DNA from: Treponema sp. CETP13 | Lineage (GTDB): Bacteria > Spirochaetota > Spirochaetia > Treponematales > Treponemataceae | Length of the DNA: 64,000 nt | Assembly: GCA_001885315.1 (NCBI GenBank) | Contig: MLPZ01000009.1 | Coordinates: 1-64,000, forward strand | Direction of reading: 5' to 3' | In this document: positions 18,510 through 26,317 of the stretch, in pieces | How the letters are laid out: each line of letters starts with the position of its first letter | How positions within the stretch are numbered: position 1 is the stretch's first letter | Program-made: the position numbers and the translations under genes | Notes under the pieces: model-generated | Database searches by the model: none | What the model saw: only the letters and a program-made list of their open reading frames with translations | Told to the model about the DNA's origin: nothing

Positions 18510-20039
18510 TTATCGAGCATATTCAATAATACGCGTTTCACGAATCATTGTAATTTTTATTCGTCCTGGATAACGAAGATCAGTTTCAATTTGTTTTGCA
18601 ATATTTCGAGCTAAATCTTTTACATCATCATCTGGAATCTTTTCATTATTAACAAGTACTCTAAGTTCTCGACCTGCTTGTATTGCATAAGCATTTTCAA
18701 CACCCTCGAAATTTTCAGCAACTTTTTCAAGATTTTCTAGGCGTTTTACATAGTTGTCCATGGTTTCACGTCTAGCACCTGGTCTTGCTGCTGAAATTGC
18801 ATCTGCAATTTGGACTATTACTGCTTCAATACTTTCAGGTTCGATGTCGTTATGATGAGCTCCAATGGCATTTTGTATAATGCTATCTTCTCCCATTTTT
18901 CTGGCCATATCCATACCGAGTTCTGCATGGTTTTGATCAGAATCGCTTTCTGCACCTTTACCAATATCGTGAAGAACTGCTGCTCGTTTTGCAATTTCAG
19001 TATCAGCTCCAATCTCAGAAGCCAATAAACTTGCAATCATTGCAACTTCTTTACTATGGTTAAGTACATTTTGACCATAACTTGTTCTAAAGTATAAACG
19101 ACCGAGATGGCGTACTCCTTCTTGTGTCATATTGTGAATACCAAGATCGAAGAGGAGCTTTTCACCTTCTTCATAAATCTTTTGTTGTATTTCTCGTGTT
19201 ACTTTTTGAACTATTTCTTCAATACGTGCTGGGTGAATTCGTCCATCACTAATAAGTCGTTCTAAAGCAACTTTTGCTATTTCTTTTCGAACAGGATCAA
19301 AACATGAAATAACAACAGCTTCTGGAGTATCATCAATAATTATGTCAACTCCTGTAAGTGTTTCTAATGTACGAATATTTCGTCCTTCACGACCTATAAT
19401 ACGACCTTTCATTTCATCGCTTGGAAGTGAGACGGTAGCAACAGTTATATCGCTAGTTGTTTCTGTTGCAATTCTTTGAATTGTAGACACAAGAACTTCA
19501 CGTGCTTTTTTTTCAGCAGTAAGTTGAGATTCTTCATCAATTTTATTTAATAAAGCTTGTGCATCGTGACGAGCTTCATTTTCAAGATTCTGAATAATAA
19601 GTTCTTTTGCTTTTTGTTGAGTCAAACCCGAAATTCGTTCAAGCTCTTGTCTGTACTTTTCTTCAATATCGTTTAAAGATTCTTCACGTTTTGTTAATGC
19701 ATTCTCTCTATTTTCGAAACTTTTTTCTTGCGTATCAAGTTCTTGTTTTCTTTTCTCAAGTGCATCTTCTTTTTGTGATAATTTTCTTTCTGCGCGTTGT
19801 ATTTCTCCGCGCCTTTCTCTATTCTCCCGCTCTTGCTGATTTCGTTCCCGAATGAGTTGATCTTTCGCTTCTAATAAAATTTCTTTTTTTTGTGCTTCCG
19901 CCTCTTTGGCAGCATCCTGTTTTACACGTTCTGCAAGTTGCTCTGATGCAGATAATTGAAATCTGGCATAAAGCCAGCGAATTGTCCATCCAAGAATCAG
20001 TCCAGCTATCGGGAGTACTATACACAACACTAATGTCAT
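18510..20039 (-). CDS. rny: Ribonuclease Y
   Basis: A membrane-anchored endoribonuclease that starts mRNA decay. An N-terminal membrane helix (about 2-22) is followed by a long Glu/Lys/Arg-rich coiled coil (about 30-190), a KH RNA-binding domain (GRIIGREGRNIRTLETLTGVDIII) and an HD domain with AAVLHDIGKG and IGAHHNDIEP. The C-terminal part ends with the conserved KITMIRETRIIEYAR. The ATG at 20039 is chosen because GGAGG lies 6 nt upstream. A TTG start 12 nt earlier would overlap that site. The length of 509 residues is normal. It is probably the last gene of the pyrG-lpt run. Confidence 0.95.
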   Translation of the reverse strand: MTLVLCIVLPIAGLILGWTIRWLYARFQLSASEQLAERVKQDAAKEAEAQKKEILLEAKDQLIRERNQQERENRERRGEIQRAERKLSQKEDALEKRKQELDTQEKSFENRENALTKREESLNDIEEKYRQELERISGLTQQKAKELIIQNLENEARHDAQALLNKIDEESQLTAEKKAREVLVSTIQRIATETTSDITVATVSLPSDEMKGRIIGREGRNIRTLETLTGVDIIIDDTPEAVVISCFDPVRKEIAKVALERLISDGRIHPARIEEIVQKVTREIQQKIYEEGEKLLFDLGIHNMTQEGVRHLGRLYFRTSYGQNVLNHSKEVAMIASLLASEIGADTEIAKRAAVLHDIGKGAESDSDQNHAELGMDMARKMGEDSIIQNAIGAHHNDIEPESIEAVIVQIADAISAARPGARRETMDNYVKRLENLEKVAENFEGVENAYAIQAGRELRVLVNNEKIPDDDVKDLARNIAKQIETDLRYPGRIKITMIRETRIIEYAR

Positions 20040-20126
20040 TTTTTCCTCCAACTAGATTAATTCATTATATAACATAGCACAAGGCACCTGTGTTGTCAAA
20101 TAGTAACAAGTTAAATTAAGCAAGAC

Positions 20127-20852
20127 TTACATTTTAAATTCTTTCCCTAAATAGATTTGTCGTGCTAATGGATTTGCTAAAATCTCTTCACGGTCACCAT
20201 AAGCGACTATCTGTCCAGCATTTACAATTAATGCTTTATGAGTAATTTCGAGCGTATCTCGAACGTTGTGATCGGTTATTAGAACCCCAATTCCCAAATC
20301 TGCTAAATGCGATACAGTTTTTTTTATGTCTGCAACTGCGATTGGATCGATTCCTGCAAAAGGTTCATCAAGCAATAAAAATTTTGGTTCTATAGCTAAG
20401 GCACGGGCAATTTCTGTACGGCGTCGCTCACCGCCTGATAAAGAATACGATATTTGTTTTCTTATGTGATTTATAGAAAATTCATCTATAAGATAATCTA
20501 GCTGATGTAGTTTTTCTTTTTTTGTTAAATCTTTACGGGTTTCAAGAATAGACCAAATGTTCTCTTCTACTGTCATTTGTCTAAAAACAGAAGCTTCTTG
20601 AGGGAGATATGAAATCCCACTTTGGGCACGTTTGTACATAGGTTTTTTTGTAATACATGTATCGTCAATAAAAACTTCTCCGCGTGTTGGTTTATAAAAG
20701 CCAACTATCATATAAAAGGTGGTTGTTTTACCGGCTCCGTTAGGACCTAACAAGCCAAGAATTTCTCCTGTATGCATTGTAAAGTCTATACCTTTGACAA
20801 CTTCTTTTTTTCCAAAGCGTTTATATAAACTACTTACACGTAATTCATTCAC
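20127..20852 (-). CDS. lptB: LptB-type ABC transporter ATPase
   Basis: ATP-binding subunit of a lipid-export ABC transporter of the LptB group. Walker A is GPNGAGKTT, the signature is [14 protein letters not shown], Walker B is [13 protein letters not shown], and the H-loop is [11 protein letters not shown]. The phrase [18 protein letters not shown] is characteristic of LptB. The length of 241 residues is normal. It overlaps the LptA-like gene by 8 nt. The permeases LptF and LptG are not in the window. Confidence 0.92.
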
Positions 20853-21537
20853 CGGAACCTTCCTTTGTAGGTATACGTGGCTCGGAAGAATTATTTGTTT
20901 TTTTAGAAGATTCTTCTTCTGAAACCGTACCAGTTACCTTGCCTACAAGAACCATTTCTTCTGTATCAATGTTCATTGTAATTTCTCTTGCGGTATATGT
21001 GTCTTCACCTTTTACTATTTTGGGAGAACCTGAAAGTTCTAATATTTGAGCCTCTTTTCGATAAATGGCAAATGAAGAAGTACAAGTTGCATTTTCTTGA
21101 AGTATTTTTACTGAAACTTGCATAGTTGCAGTTTGAGATGCTTGATCATAATAAATATACTCTGCCTCAATTTTTACATCATTTTCTGTATCATTCATTT
21201 TAACATTCTTTTCTAAAATAGCAACTTTTGTTTCTCTGTCATATTGCATTTCTGAACATTCAAATGTAAATCCACTTTCTATACTTGTGCCACTTATATT
21301 TCCTGTAACAGTAACAATACGATAATTTTTCCCAGATATTTCAATTTTATCAGCAGATATTTCCATATCATCTGTTTTTATGTATGCATTACCTATAAGT
21401 GTTGTTATACTATTTGCATCATTACTCTTGCCACTCATACTGTCAGCTTTAAACACAATATCTTTGGCAGATAATTGAATGGGGAGGAATAAAAAAGAAG
21501 CTATCATCAACACTGCTTTAAAAGATTTATTGGTCAT
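20845..21537 (-). CDS. lptA: LptA/OstA-domain periplasmic protein
   Basis: A periplasmic OstA-like (beta-jellyroll) protein that would bridge the inner and outer membranes for amphipathic lipid transport. A signal peptide occupies residues 1-24 (cleavage near LSA). Repeated strand motifs of the family are visible ([41 protein letters not shown], then a second set). A Ser/Lys-rich C-terminal tail is extra. Identification rests on the fold pattern plus position between the LptC-like and LptB genes, with 8- and 11-nt overlaps. Confidence 0.8.
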
Positions 21538-22135
21538 TATTTATCACTCCGGTGAGAGGTTTTTCTTCTGTGTCTGTTGTCTCTACAGTTTCATTTTGAT
21601 AAATAATACCAGATACATTTTTTTGAAGTGAAAAGGAAGCGTCTTTTTCGCTTGCGGTAAAACCTGTCCCACTCATAGTAAATTCATCAGTGGTTATGGT
21701 AACCGTATCATCTGTAGTTCCTACAAGATTTTCTGTTTTACCATTCCACATCAAATTTTCAGCTGTTATTGTAGCTTTTTTTTCGTAGCTGTGAATAAAA
21801 ATATCAGAAAATAATTGATAGATTTTTGTTTCATTGTTTGCAGCAAATAAATTGCATCGCCCTTCGAGTGATTTCTTTCCTTGAGAGTCATACGAGGTAA
21901 AATTTATGTTTGTGCCAAACATTGCATCCACTCCACAGTATTGTTCAATTTTATCAGCAGAAAACTCTAAGGATATCTTCTCGTCTTTTGTACGTACAAA
22001 ATTAGCATTATCAAACACAAATTCAGGTGAAACAGATTTCTCATTTGTTGTATCATTATAGTCTAATGAGCACGAAAAGAGAAAAAATAAGATGAAAAAG
22101 GTTTCAAATTTCACAAAAAAACGAATTTTTTGCAC
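21527..22135 (-). CDS. lptC: LptC-like lipoprotein
   Basis: A 202-residue exported protein with a lipoprotein-like signal (residues 1-22, ending in FSCS) and an LptC-type domain: PEFVFDNANFVRTKDEKISLEFSADKIEQY, followed by strand pairs such as TAENLMWNGKTENLVG and FTMSGTGFTASEKD. LptC normally passes lipid from the LptBFG transporter to LptA. Proteobacterial LptC is anchored by a membrane helix, so a lipoprotein version is a variation. It starts at GTG 7 nt after the pyrG stop. Confidence 0.75.
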   Translation of the reverse strand: MQKIRFFVKFETFFILFFLFSCSLDYNDTTNEKSVSPEFVFDNANFVRTKDEKISLEFSADKIEQYCGVDAMFGTNINFTSYDSQGKKSLEGRCNLFAANNETKIYQLFSDIFIHSYEKKATITAENLMWNGKTENLVGTTDDTVTITTDEFTMSGTGFTASEKDASFSLQKNVSGIIYQNETVETTDTEEKPLTGVINNDQ

Positions 22136-22141
22136 AGAATT

Positions 22142-23755
22142 TTATTCCTTTTTTTCTTTGTATAATATAGTAGCCCCAACAAAAGCAGAAAACAGTGGAT
22201 GTGGTTGAGTAGGTCGAGAAATAAATTCTGGATGATACTGTACTCCAATTCCCCAAGGATGATTTTTCCATTCTAAAGCTTCAATTTGCATATCTAAAAC
22301 AGAAATAGCAGATGTTAATAAGCCTGCTTTTTCTAAATTATCTTTATATTTTTTATCACAAGTATACTTGTTACGATGTCGTTCAGTAATAGTTGATTTT
22401 TTGTAAATATCTTTTAGTTTTGAACCTTTGGTAATAGTTATCTCGCTATTACCTACTTTCATAAGCCCTGCTGCAGCGAAACTTGATTGTTCTTCAGGCA
22501 AGCTAACAATTGGATAATCAGTATTTTGGATAAACTCTGTTGAATCAGCTTCTTCCCATTTTATAATGTTTCTGGCTGTTTCAATGGCCATGATTTGCAT
22601 ACCAAAATCTATTCCTAAGAAAGGAATATTATGTTCACGTGCATATTGTACACCAGCTAAAAGTCCTAAAAATCCTCGTTGTCCATAGTTTCCTGGAACT
22701 ACAATTCCATCAAATCCTTCAAAAAAAGGTGCTGGATTGTGGGCAGATTCTATATCTTCTGCATCGATTTTTCGTAAATCTAATTTTACACCATGTGCAC
22801 TTACTGCAGCATGTAACAAAGATTCACGAACAGATTTATAACAATCATTCTCGTAGTTTTTTTTGCCTAACATTCCAATTTTGATTGTTTTTTTAGGATT
22901 ATTTATCTTATCTAAAAACTTTTTCCACGGAGTAATATCAGCTTTATGTTTTGTAAAACCGAGCTTTTTTAAAATAAGAGCGTCAATCCCTTGTTCATTA
23001 AAGATAACCGGTAATTCATAAATAGTTTTAGATATATCAGGGGATGTAAATACTGCATTTTGTTCAACATTGCAAAATTTCGCTATTTTATTACGTATTC
23101 CTTCGTCGAGTATGTTTTCTGTACGACACAAAAGAATATCAGGTTGAATTCCTATTTCTTGCATACATTTTACTGAATGCTGTGTTGGTTTGGTTTTTAA
23201 CTCACCACCAGTAATTATTGGTACCAGAGTAAGATGAAGAGAGATGGCATTTCCTTTGCCTGTTTTTCGCATAAGTTGTCGTGTAGCTTCTAGAAAAGGA
23301 ATGGATTCAATGTCACCAACAGTTCCTCCAATTTCAACAATTACAACATCAGCTTGTGTTTGGGCTCCAACTCTTAGAATTTGTCTTTGAATTTCATCTG
23401 TAATGTGTGGAATAACTTGTACCGTACGTCCATTATAACGCCCAGCACGTTCGTTATTTATTACTTCTTCGTATATTTTCCCTGTTGTAATACAGTTTGC
23501 CCCTGTAAGTGTTACATGTGTAAAGCGAGAATAATTTCCAAGATCTAAATCTGTTTCTGTTCCATCACTTGTAACATATACTTCTCCATGTTGATACGGA
23601 CTCATGTTTCCTGCATCAACGTTTATGTAAGGATCGCATTTCATCATTGCAACACTAAGATTACAGCATTCGAGTAGGCTTCCAATAGATGAAGAAGCTA
23701 CTCCTTTTCCGAGGCTTGAACACACCCCTCCGGTTACCAAAATGTATTTACTCAT
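22142..23755 (-). CDS. pyrG: CTP synthase with the glutaminase nucleophile replaced by Asp
   Basis: CTP synthase aminates UTP to CTP using ATP. The N-terminal synthetase domain is fully conserved: TGGVCSSLGKG P-loop, KCDPYINVDAG, HGEVYVT, DGTETDLDLGNY, EIGGTVGDIES and KTKPTQHSVK. The C-terminal class I glutamine amidotransferase domain has the late His-Glu pair (QYHPEF), but the nucleophile motif GICLGMQ reads GIDFGMQ. Asp383 (GAT, plus-strand positions 22607-22609) stands where Cys should be, and the oxyanion motif PGGFG reads PGNYG. Glutamine hydrolysis should therefore be lost and ammonia used directly. The ATG at 23755 is preferred over a GTG 15 nt upstream because homologues begin with MxKYI. 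Length 537 is normal. Confidence 0.93.
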   Translation of the reverse strand: MSKYILVTGGVCSSLGKGVASSSIGSLLECCNLSVAMMKCDPYINVDAGNMSPYQHGEVYVTSDGTETDLDLGNYSRFTHVTLTGANCITTGKIYEEVINNERAGRYNGRTVQVIPHITDEIQRQILRVGAQTQADVVIVEIGGTVGDIESIPFLEATRQLMRKTGKGNAISLHLTLVPIITGGELKTKPTQHSVKCMQEIGIQPDILLCRTENILDEGIRNKIAKFCNVEQNAVFTSPDISKTIYELPVIFNEQGIDALILKKLGFTKHKADITPWKKFLDKINNPKKTIKIGMLGKKNYENDCYKSVRESLLHAAVSAHGVKLDLRKIDAEDIESAHNPAPFFEGFDGIVVPGNYGQRGFLGLLAGVQYAREHNIPFLGIDFGMQIMAIETARNIIKWEEADSTEFIQNTDYPIVSLPEEQSSFAAAGLMKVGNSEITITKGSKLKDIYKKSTITERHRNKYTCDKKYKDNLEKAGLLTSAISVLDMQIEALEWKNHPWGIGVQYHPEFISRPTQPHPLFSAFVGATILYKEKKE

Positions 23756-23762
23756 GCTGTTT

Positions 23763-23791
23763 AGTTTCACATTTAGGCGTTATTTTGTCAA
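23763..23791 (-). promoter_or_regulatory. Possible promoter of pyrG
   Basis: On the minus strand a perfect TTGACA (23786-23791) stands 17 bp before GAAACT (23763-23768), a weak -10 box that ends 7 nt before the ATG. No ribosome binding site is seen between. Confidence 0.45.
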
Positions 23792-23851
23792 CCGAATGCG
23801 TGTGTTTTATATTGTGTTTTTTACCGATAAAACGTTCATGTTATTAATTTA

Positions 23852-23880
23852 TTTACTTTAATAAATCATTCGTGTATACT
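23852..23880 (+). promoter_or_regulatory. Promoter abutting the cheR start
   Basis: TTTACT (23852-23857) and TATACT (23875-23880) are 17 bp apart, and the ATG of cheR follows the -10 box after 6 nt. Confidence 0.6.
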
Positions 23881-23886
23881 ATCTAA

Positions 23887-24702
23887 ATGAGCGATTTATT
23901 GAAAACGGATGAATTTGAAAAATTTAGTAAAATTATTTATGAAAAAAGTGGTATTACATTTTCTAGTACAAATCGTTCTATTTTGGATAGTCGATTAAAA
24001 GAGTTGCTTCGTAGCAAAAAAATACTAACAGTAGAAGATTATTATACGCTTATTACTTCTGATGAGGAAGAAATGAAAGCAATGTTAGATTCTGTGACCA
24101 CGAATTTGACCCGTTTTTTTAGAAACATACCTCATTTTCAAACATTGCAAAATTATGTATTCCCAATACTAATAAAGCAAAAAAAAACTTCAGGAAATAA
24201 GAGTATTAAAATTTGGAGTGCAGGTTGTTCAACAGGAGAAGAACCTTATACGATTGCTATGATTGCCAAAGAAAAATTGCCTTCAGATTTTAAAGTTGAA
24301 ATCACTGCTTCTGATTTATCTTTAAAGTCTTTAATGGTTGGGCGTCAAGGGTTTTATGCTGCTTCGAAAGTAAATGGAATCCCTAAAGAGTATTTAGATA
24401 AATATTTCACGGCTACGGCTTCAGGATATCAAGTTAATCCAGATTTAAAAGAAATGATACACTTCGATTATCATAATCTAAAAAATGATTCTGGGCTTCG
24501 TAATGTTGATATTGTGTTTTGTCGTAACGTCCTTATTTATTTTGATGAAGCTGCACAAAAAGCTGTTATTGATCGATTTTGGAATTCAATGGCTTTAAAA
24601 TCACACCTATTCATAGGACATTCTGAATCATTATTTGGTATGGATACAAAATTTGAATTTGTAAAAACAGAATGGGCTTGTTTATATCGTAAAAATTTGT
24701 AA
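23887..24702 (+). CDS. cheR: Chemotaxis protein methyltransferase CheR
   Basis: CheR methylates glutamates of chemoreceptors using S-adenosylmethionine. The all-alpha N-domain (about 1-75) is followed by the methyltransferase domain with IWSAGCSTGEEPYTIAM, ITASDLSLKSL, NVDIVFCRNVLIYFD and the late GHSESL. The length of 271 residues is normal. It is followed after 8 nt by cheB, giving a complete adaptation pair. The chemoreceptor at 10.5 kb is a possible substrate. The -10 box 6 nt from the ATG predicts a leaderless mRNA. Confidence 0.96.
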   Translation: MSDLLKTDEFEKFSKIIYEKSGITFSSTNRSILDSRLKELLRSKKILTVEDYYTLITSDEEEMKAMLDSVTTNLTRFFRNIPHFQTLQNYVFPILIKQKKTSGNKSIKIWSAGCSTGEEPYTIAMIAKEKLPSDFKVEITASDLSLKSLMVGRQGFYAASKVNGIPKEYLDKYFTATASGYQVNPDLKEMIHFDYHNLKNDSGLRNVDIVFCRNVLIYFDEAAQKAVIDRFWNSMALKSHLFIGHSESLFGMDTKFEFVKTEWACLYRKNL

Positions 24703-24710
24703 AGGAAGTA

Positions 24711-25862
24711 ATGATGGATGAAATTACAATCTTAATAGTTGATGACTCTGCTCTAATGCGTAATCTTATTTCTCGAATTGTAGATGGGCTTCCTGGAACA
24801 AAAGTTGTTGGAAAAGCAATGAATGGAGAAATGGCTCTTAACCGTTTAGAATTATTGCAACCAGATATAATTATTCTAGATATAGAAATGCCTGTAATGA
24901 CAGGCGTTGAGTTTATGAGGGAACGTAGAAAAAGAAATATAGATATTCCTGTTGTAATTCTTTCTAGTATTGCCAGAAAGGGTGCAGCAGTAACTATGGA
25001 ATGTTTGGAACTAGGGGCAAGTGATTTTATTCTGAAACCAACGCTTTCTGAGAACAACGACTTAAAAAAAGTTGCAGAATCTCTTACAGAAGTAATCTAT
25101 AGTTATGGGTCTGCTTATGCAATTTCTAAGGGTAAAAAAATTCAATATACAGATCCTGTTATTGCAAAGCAAACTGTATCGCTCGAAAAATCTAGCGATA
25201 ATTCTTCTGCTACGATTCTTCATTCTCCTTTTGGTGCAACAACAAAAAAGCAAGATCCTATCAAGGCTTTACGTGAGCCTGGTCCAATAGATGTAATTGC
25301 ATGGGGTATTTCTACTGGTGGCCCAAATGCTCTTCGTGAAGTATTTGCAAAATTGTCTTCAAAAATAAAACAACCAATGCTTGTTGTTCAGCATATGCCA
25401 GCAGGTTTTACAGAGGAATTTGCAAATAGTTTAGATCATATCTGTGCTCTAACGGTAAAAGAAGCTTCCGAAGGTGATTTATTAAAATCTGGTCGCATTT
25501 TGATTGCTCCAGGAAATAAACATATTGTTTTAGAAAAAAAAGCGCTTGCAACTATAGTCCATTTATCTGATGAACCTGTAAGAAATGGGCATCGTCCTTC
25601 TGTAGATGTTCTTTTTGAGTCAGTGGCAAAAGAGTATAAAAATAGAGCTTTAGGTATAATTATGACTGGTATGGGGAGAGATGGAGCTACACAACTTGCA
25701 GAATTGCGTAAGCAAGGTTCTCGTACTCTAGGTCAAGATGAAAAAACTTCTGTTGTATATGGAATGCCTAAAGTTGCTTGGAATTTGGGGGCTGTTCAAA
25801 AACAGGTCCCCTTACAAGAAATGGCTGATGCTGTTAATGAACTAGCGATTAATTATGCTTAA
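24711..25862 (+). CDS. cheB: Chemotaxis response regulator and methylesterase CheB
   Basis: CheB removes methyl groups from chemoreceptors. Residues 5-125 are a receiver with acidic pair Asp11-Asp12, phosphoacceptor Asp57 and Lys109. A linker follows, then the esterase domain (about 190-378) with catalytic Ser201 in GISTGGP, His228 in QHMPAGF and Asp324 in GMGRDGA. Two consecutive ATG codons are available; AAGGA lies 4 or 7 nt upstream, and the second spacing is better. The 3' end overlaps the converging RseC-like gene by 4 nt. Confidence 0.96.
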   Translation: MMDEITILIVDDSALMRNLISRIVDGLPGTKVVGKAMNGEMALNRLELLQPDIIILDIEMPVMTGVEFMRERRKRNIDIPVVILSSIARKGAAVTMECLELGASDFILKPTLSENNDLKKVAESLTEVIYSYGSAYAISKGKKIQYTDPVIAKQTVSLEKSSDNSSATILHSPFGATTKKQDPIKALREPGPIDVIAWGISTGGPNALREVFAKLSSKIKQPMLVVQHMPAGFTEEFANSLDHICALTVKEASEGDLLKSGRILIAPGNKHIVLEKKALATIVHLSDEPVRNGHRPSVDVLFESVAKEYKNRALGIIMTGMGRDGATQLAELRKQGSRTLGQDEKTSVVYGMPKVAWNLGAVQKQVPLQEMADAVNELAINYA

Positions 25863-26317
25863 AGGTGAGTGAGACACGCATTGTTTTGTATTTCATTCAT
25901 ACTAGTGTCTACAACTTTTTCGATATAGCTGGAATCAGGATTTTTTTTCCGTGAGCTAGCATATATTATGAGCATTGGAATAAGTGCTCCTAAAAGGACT
26001 CCGAGGACATGAAGTCCTTCTCCTGCTATAGAACCTGTAAGAAACGCAATCCAACTTACGATAAACCAACCTAGAACAGCAAATAAAGCAGGGATTAGGA
26101 TTACAAGACCTGCTTGTTTCCCTTGTGCTTTTCTATTGGCGCCAATTTTTACAAATTGTCCCTCTTTTACTTCAATCTTATCAGGGTTTGTTACAATAAA
26201 GGGCTTCCCAGCTTCTAATTCGCAATGGTTTGCGCAACCCATACAGTGTTCTGTCATTATGGGAGTTACCTTTATTCCATAAGAATCAATTTTATCTATT
26301 TTGGCAAAATCATACAT
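25859..26317 (-). CDS. RseC/MucC-family membrane protein
   Basis: A SoxR-reducing-system RseC family protein: an N-terminal soluble part with the Cys cluster CMGCANHC (usually CxxCxxxxxC or close), then two membrane helices (about 72-95 and 103-120) and a charged tail. Relatives sit in Rnf-type redox systems or sigma-E operons, but neither is adjacent here. It overlaps the TPR gene by 8 nt and is the last gene of the run that begins with the prenyl transferase. Confidence 0.75.
   Translation of the reverse strand: MYDFAKIDKIDSYGIKVTPIMTEHCMGCANHCELEAGKPFIVTNPDKIEVKEGQFVKIGANRKAQGKQAGLVILIPALFAVLGWFIVSWIAFLTGSIAGEGLHVLGVLLGALIPMLIIYASSRKKNPDSSYIEKVVDTSMNEIQNNACLTHL

Follow-up and report, generated by a model that had tools for sequence, protein, structure and literature searches.

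What becomes of a CTP synthase whose glutaminase nucleophile has been replaced? The question is raised by a pyrG gene in the window, a stretch of 64,000 nucleotides of contig MLPZ01000009.1 from Treponema sp. CETP13, which the original prediction described as an intact synthetase half joined to an amidotransferase half with Asp in the place of the catalytic Cys. The minus-strand codon at 22609-22607 was confirmed as GAT, and the translation contains, in this order, VVPGNYGQRGFLG, PFLGIDFGMQ, and GVQYHPEF; the exchange of PGGFG for PGNYG and the retention of HPEF, both reported earlier, were likewise read in it. The features of the locus are given below, where counts refer to an alignment of 39 Cys-less sequences (the 18 intact proteins found first, 19 new ones, and 2 named ones).

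22142..23755, minus strand: gene for the Cys-less PyrG of 537 aa, the native CTP synthase paralogue of spirochaetes, reading frame uninterrupted
23702..23731, minus strand: synthetase P-loop GGVCSSLGKG, intact
23606..23608, minus strand: Asn50, equivalent to E. coli Thr51 in the GTP cleft; Asn in 33/39
23432..23434, minus strand: Asn108, equivalent to E. coli Leu109 in loop L4 (GTP activation); Asn in 39/39
22682..22696, minus strand: PGNYG, degenerated start of the oxyanion/L11 lid; PGGFG at 350-354 in E. coli
22607..22609, minus strand: Asp383 (codon GAT), at the position of the E. coli nucleophile Cys379
22457..22465, minus strand: Leu431-Met-Lys433, replacing the GTP-activation motif Thr438-x-Arg440 (for what this motif does, see PMC9138612 Table 1)
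22367..22369, minus strand: Lys463, equivalent to E. coli Arg470; Lys in 38/39 (role in GTP binding, PMC9138612)
22226..22234, minus strand: His508-Pro-Glu510, His and Glu of the triad, kept in 39/39
21527..22135, minus strand: lptC, 6 bases 3′ of pyrG
20845..21537, minus strand: lptA
20127..20852, minus strand: lptB
18510..20051, minus strand: rny-like gene (KH/HD RNase Y), last of the run
23887..24702, plus strand: cheR, divergent upstream neighbor, which abuts lptC in many relatives without the Cys-less pyrG

By domain, fold, and synthetase site, the window protein is a PyrG homologue. It matched PF06418 with 392 bits over residues 3-266, PF00117 with 95 bits, and TIGR00337 with 667 bits against a cutoff of 463, and it carries K18, K40, D72, E140, D147, E149, K187, K189, Q192, R211, and K223 of the ATP/UTP/Mg2+ site. 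An AlphaFold2 model built from the Cys-less clade's own alignment (pLDDT of 79 and pTM of 0.83, with low confidence in loops 45-57, 301-306, and 402-431) had only CTP synthases as its best PDB matches, over the entire length and with TM values of about 0.85 to 0.90. At the glutamine and GTP sites, the Cys-His-Glu triad retains its His and Glu and has lost its Cys, the oxyanion/glutamine site reads PGNYG and Lys463 beside a kept Glu403 equivalent, and the GTP-site residues Thr51, Leu109, Thr438, Arg440, and Arg470 of the E. coli enzyme are N, N, L, K, and K. The change is thus wider than the Cys and the oxyanion loop, and it also includes His469, Tyr298, and Phe353 (E. coli numbering). Since nucleophile, oxyanion loop, and GTP site are all altered, the protein does not qualify as a glutamine-hydrolyzing CTP synthase, the very label that automatic annotation by TIGR00337 would give it.

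Aligning PyrG across relatives was among the checks proposed with the original prediction. At position 379, the 39 Treponemataceae sequences have Asp (30), Asn (8), or Gly (1) and in no case Cys; a sequencing error at 22607-22609 was ruled out by this agreement between the window and other assemblies. Two PyrG proteins are present in many genomes of the same family (119 relatives surveyed), and the first set yielded the 18 intact Cys-less proteins plus a decaying one, all at a pyrG-lptC-lptA(-lptB, rny) locus. Nearly all of the 39 were seen at one locus, pyrG-lptC-lptA-lptB, and the named carriers are Treponema sp. RUI140 and Spirochaetaceae RUG11131, both rumen-type MAGs. In a phylum-wide sample of 393 genomes, 33 matches scored 759 to 1228 bits, all of them in this family, and none of the others exceeded 667 bits. 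A broad scan with a pattern common to most PyrG proteins, which is no census and names at least two Cys-less carriers, covered at least 80 PyrG loci; among the matches listed, Cys was found in 76 and the treponeme Cys-less form in 2, and no independent Cys-less PyrG was found beyond the treponemes. One apparent Ala-bearing PyrG (L171) was rejected as a false pattern match in another stretch, its real motif being GICLGMH, and the motif of another (L181) was not resolved by the scan pattern.

The losses are concentrated in one module. Conserved positions were lost at 14/66 in the glutaminase half versus 4/94 in the synthetase half (p = 0.0016), and literature-defined sites at 8/20 for glutamine/GTP versus 0/24 for ATP/UTP/Mg/CTP (Fisher p = 0.0007), the site lists being taken in part from PMC9138612 and in part from general knowledge of E. 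coli PyrG. K18, K40, E140, D147, E149, K187, K189, Q192, R211, and K223 are invariant in 39/39. On the glutaminase side, G352 is N, S, or V in all 39, T438 is V, I, L, or another residue in 33/39, R440 is K in 30/39, and F353, C379, H469, and Y298 are also lost in the clade; the loss of L109 weighs less, since the acquired copies lack a conserved L109 as well. The E. coli and Lactococcus lactis variants G352P, L109A/F, T431V (equivalent to T438), and R433M (equivalent to R440) have lost or reduced glutamine/GTP-dependent activity and keep NH3-dependent synthesis within about twofold (PMC9138612 Table 1). These are changed at the same positions as the Cys-less clade, although they are single laboratory changes and the residues introduced differ in part from those of the clade. 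On sequence grounds, the natural clade looks like all those published changes combined.

Could the glutaminase still be active with Asp, Asn, or Gly at the nucleophile position, or through another residue? The His515, Glu517, and Glu403 equivalents are kept in 39/39, which speaks for such an activity, but the replaced oxyanion glycine and the exchange of Arg470 for Lys speak against it, and G352P alone abolishes the glutamine-dependent activity of the E. coli enzyme (PMC9138612). Furthermore, no alternative nucleophile is conserved, because position 379 itself varies. We regard a surviving glutaminase as hardly credible.

Whether the gene is nevertheless under selection was read from its substitutions. 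Where dS was unsaturated, dN/dS for close pairs was 0 to 0.07 in the synthetase half and 0.04 to 0.12 in the glutaminase half (0 to 0.12 overall). The Cys-bearing copies in these genomes do not differ in this respect, and none of the 39 genes has a frameshift or stop. Identity in the synthetase half is 77% within the Cys-less clade, 77% within the lpt-linked Cys-bearing group, and 65% between the two; the corresponding values for the glutaminase half are 63%, 65%, and 46%. This pattern of identities is that of a glutaminase half with a burst of change on the stem, after which constraint resumed. The claim that glutaminase function was lost in an intact gene with an intact synthetase half is thus borne out by sequence and selection.

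A gene kept merely at the head of the lpt operon for promoter or translational coupling, or a gene in decay, would be an alternative. Window pyrG heads the order pyrG-lptC-lptA-lptB(-rny) with a gap of just six bases to lptC, the two genes overlap or nearly do so in relatives, and one genome, G035, has a decaying copy at its lpt locus (L071, branch of 1.82). Against this, the lptA locus is kept without pyrG in front in 29/29 sampled relatives lacking the Cys-less copy, where cheR or an RseC-like gene often abuts lptC. An Rfam search found no RNA element in 20000-26000. Since dN/dS is low and relatives cleanly lack pyrG with lpt intact, both decay and the operon-relic account fail for this gene, and we consider them very improbable. 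The earlier argument that a gene leading the lpt run is unlikely to be decaying therefore reached a sound conclusion on dN/dS grounds for a reason that fails, as the pyrG-free lpt loci and the decaying copy demonstrate. Genome G035 contains three PyrG genes, namely, the decaying Cys-less one (damaged P-loop, Glu at the nucleophile position), a further degenerate one, and a single normal gene (L071 and L070 loci).

It had also been suggested that free ammonia may be this organism's sole nitrogen source for CTP, a proposal that a second, normal pyrG would contradict. Such a gene was found at C17:90433-92049 in the genome that contains the window (99.87% complete, 2.54 Mb in 21 contigs). Its product is 43% identical to the window PyrG and has GICLGMQ, PGGFGDRGIEG, HPEF, and ERHRHR, and guaA (GMP synthase) directly follows the gene (L073:8434-11927, G000:C17). 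The cell is therefore not dependent on ammonia alone for CTP, and this part of the prediction was abandoned. The pyrG-guaA neighborhood was also seen in G028 and G004 (L262, L263). A second pyrG match was present in all 33 high-quality genomes of the phylum-wide sample that carry the Cys-less gene, with Cys read directly in 11 and the type of the others judged from the score band. Among the first 18 carriers, a full second copy was not seen in two, both of them incomplete assemblies (G025, 74%; G007, 70%), and in G007 a fragment matching PF06418 lies at the end of a contig.

Which of the two copies is native? The order's other families encode a Cys-bearing PyrG at this lpt locus, and several of these loci have cheR-cheB as neighbors, as the window does. 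The Cys-less clade forms one side of a branch beside these lpt-linked Cys-bearing proteins (SH-aLRT of 100), and in the broader tree the two make up a single spirochaete group (support of 100). The second copies of Treponemataceae nest among Bacillota in that tree, a placement by which the donor is only indicated, since the broader trees were quick ones with outgroups picked by sequence pattern. The shared lpt locus and the tree placement mark the window gene as the native pyrG and the Cys-bearing copy as the newcomer. A second pyrG was apparently gained from Bacillota more than once (L002 type versus L017/L005/L003 and L011 types).

Ten genomes of the family, with estimated completeness of 91 to 99%, are without any PyrG match (G008, G011, G018, G038, G040, G058, G069, G282, G332, and G366). 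Seven were tested, and each has pyrB and an lpt locus without pyrG; CTP synthase is possibly missing or replaced in these genomes, or cytidine may be salvaged.

At the level of sequence, then, the Cys-less proteins form a clade at a shared locus, their losses are specific to one module, they are under purifying selection, and a Cys-bearing PyrG accompanies them. What we infer is that the protein is catalytically active, draws on free ammonia, and works without GTP, together with the order in which events took place. The reading we favor, with moderate confidence, is that the native pyrG persists as an isozyme that makes CTP from ammonia only and independently of GTP, next to a second enzyme that depends on glutamine and is activated by GTP. 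The native spirochaete gene would have been inherited vertically, the family would then have gained a Firmicutes-type glutamine-dependent second pyrG, and the native enzyme would afterwards have lost glutamine hydrolysis and the GTP-activation site as one package; because the Cys-bearing copy covers the glutamine-dependent need, the native one would have been free to specialize. In the proposed reaction, ATP would phosphorylate UTP, free NH3 would attack, and CTP would form and exert feedback inhibition, with the former glutaminase domain now in a structural role. Cys-less PyrG probably runs on free ammonia, a reading that is weakened by the fact that it is never the sole PyrG in the high-quality genomes.

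The constant presence of a second match favors another reading, in which Cys-less PyrG is a regulatory or assembly partner that binds ATP, UTP, and CTP and tunes Cys-bearing PyrG by entering mixed tetramers or filaments with it, the catalysis of the Cys-less protein being secondary or absent. CTP synthases do assemble as tetramers and filaments (PMC9138612, PMC4126345), which we counted in its favor. An amidotransferase domain under purifying selection though incapable of glutamine hydrolysis points the same way, and the kept His and Glu and the folded domain would be expected for such a partner, too. Further, D72, which we take to be a Mg2+ ligand in CTP synthase, is Asn in 3/39 (L067, L043, and L052) and the tunnel-gate residue H57 is changed in 6/39, so catalysis may be impaired in a minority of the clade; judged by sequence, L067, L043, and L052 may be losing synthetase activity as well. 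However, the invariance of K18, K40, E140, K187, K189, and K223 is unneeded for pure nucleotide binding, and the two proteins differ in lineage, their synthetase halves being only about 53% identical. We therefore rate a regulatory partner as possible and on the whole unlikely, and its more specific form, a dedicated nucleotide-sensing pseudo-amidotransferase that arose from the displaced native enzyme and regulates the acquired Cys-bearing PyrG in mixed tetramers or filaments, as slightly more doubtful. Both options named in the original prediction, an ammonia-driven enzyme and a ligand-sensing or structural domain, accordingly stay in play.

The long stem branch of the clade (0.84 changes per column) and its invariants (K102N, L109N, I358F, E359L, and a fixed Q355) could also signal changed chemistry, such as amination or phosphorylation of another uracil nucleotide or a supply of ammonia in trans from another protein. 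We find this improbable, for the triphosphate, Mg, and pyrimidine-site residues are unaltered, the clade-specific invariants lie mostly on the glutaminase/GTP side, and the conserved neighbors lptCAB, rny, and cheRB suggest no other nucleotide pathway.

How does the ammonia-using isozyme that we favor compare with known systems? With glutamine-hydrolyzing PyrG (TIGR00337, PF06418 plus PF00117), the clade shares full-length homology, fold, synthetase site, triad His and Glu, and feedback-site residues; it differs in the absent nucleophile Cys, the broken oxyanion loop, and the replaced Arg470 and GTP-activation residues, and in accompanying a normal PyrG as an additional copy. In both human CTPS1/CTPS2 and yeast Ura7/Ura8, the two members are described as glutamine-dependent. 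Those eukaryotic pairs likewise provide two CTP synthases per cell with divided roles, whereas the treponeme pair goes back to a horizontal gain, and one of its members has lost the glutaminase. Another parallel is mammalian carbamoyl phosphate synthetase 1 (CPS1), a class I amidotransferase with a replaced glutaminase Cys (Ser294 in the human enzyme) and a retained domain, which uses free ammonia (PMC4655335). Cys-less PyrG resembles it in that the nucleophile is gone, the domain is kept and under selection, and the protein is paralogous to glutamine users, and by analogy it may use ammonia; it belongs to another enzyme family with another product, and it has also lost its activator (GTP) site. 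The literature searched, which lay largely outside subscription journals, yielded no description of a naturally occurring CTP synthase that lacks the glutaminase Cys.

Cys-less PyrG is a whole conserved clade that extends over many genera of treponemes. Should ammonia be its only nitrogen donor, it would be the CTP synthase counterpart of the CPS1 switch, and evolution would have repeated the laboratory GTP-activation mutants, with glutamine hydrolysis and GTP control gone and the synthetase spared. The Cys-less and Cys-bearing pair offers a clean system for studying roles of the glutaminase domain besides hydrolysis, and it illustrates what can happen to an essential native gene once a foreign copy has come in: some relatives lost the gene, and in others it gave up half of its function.
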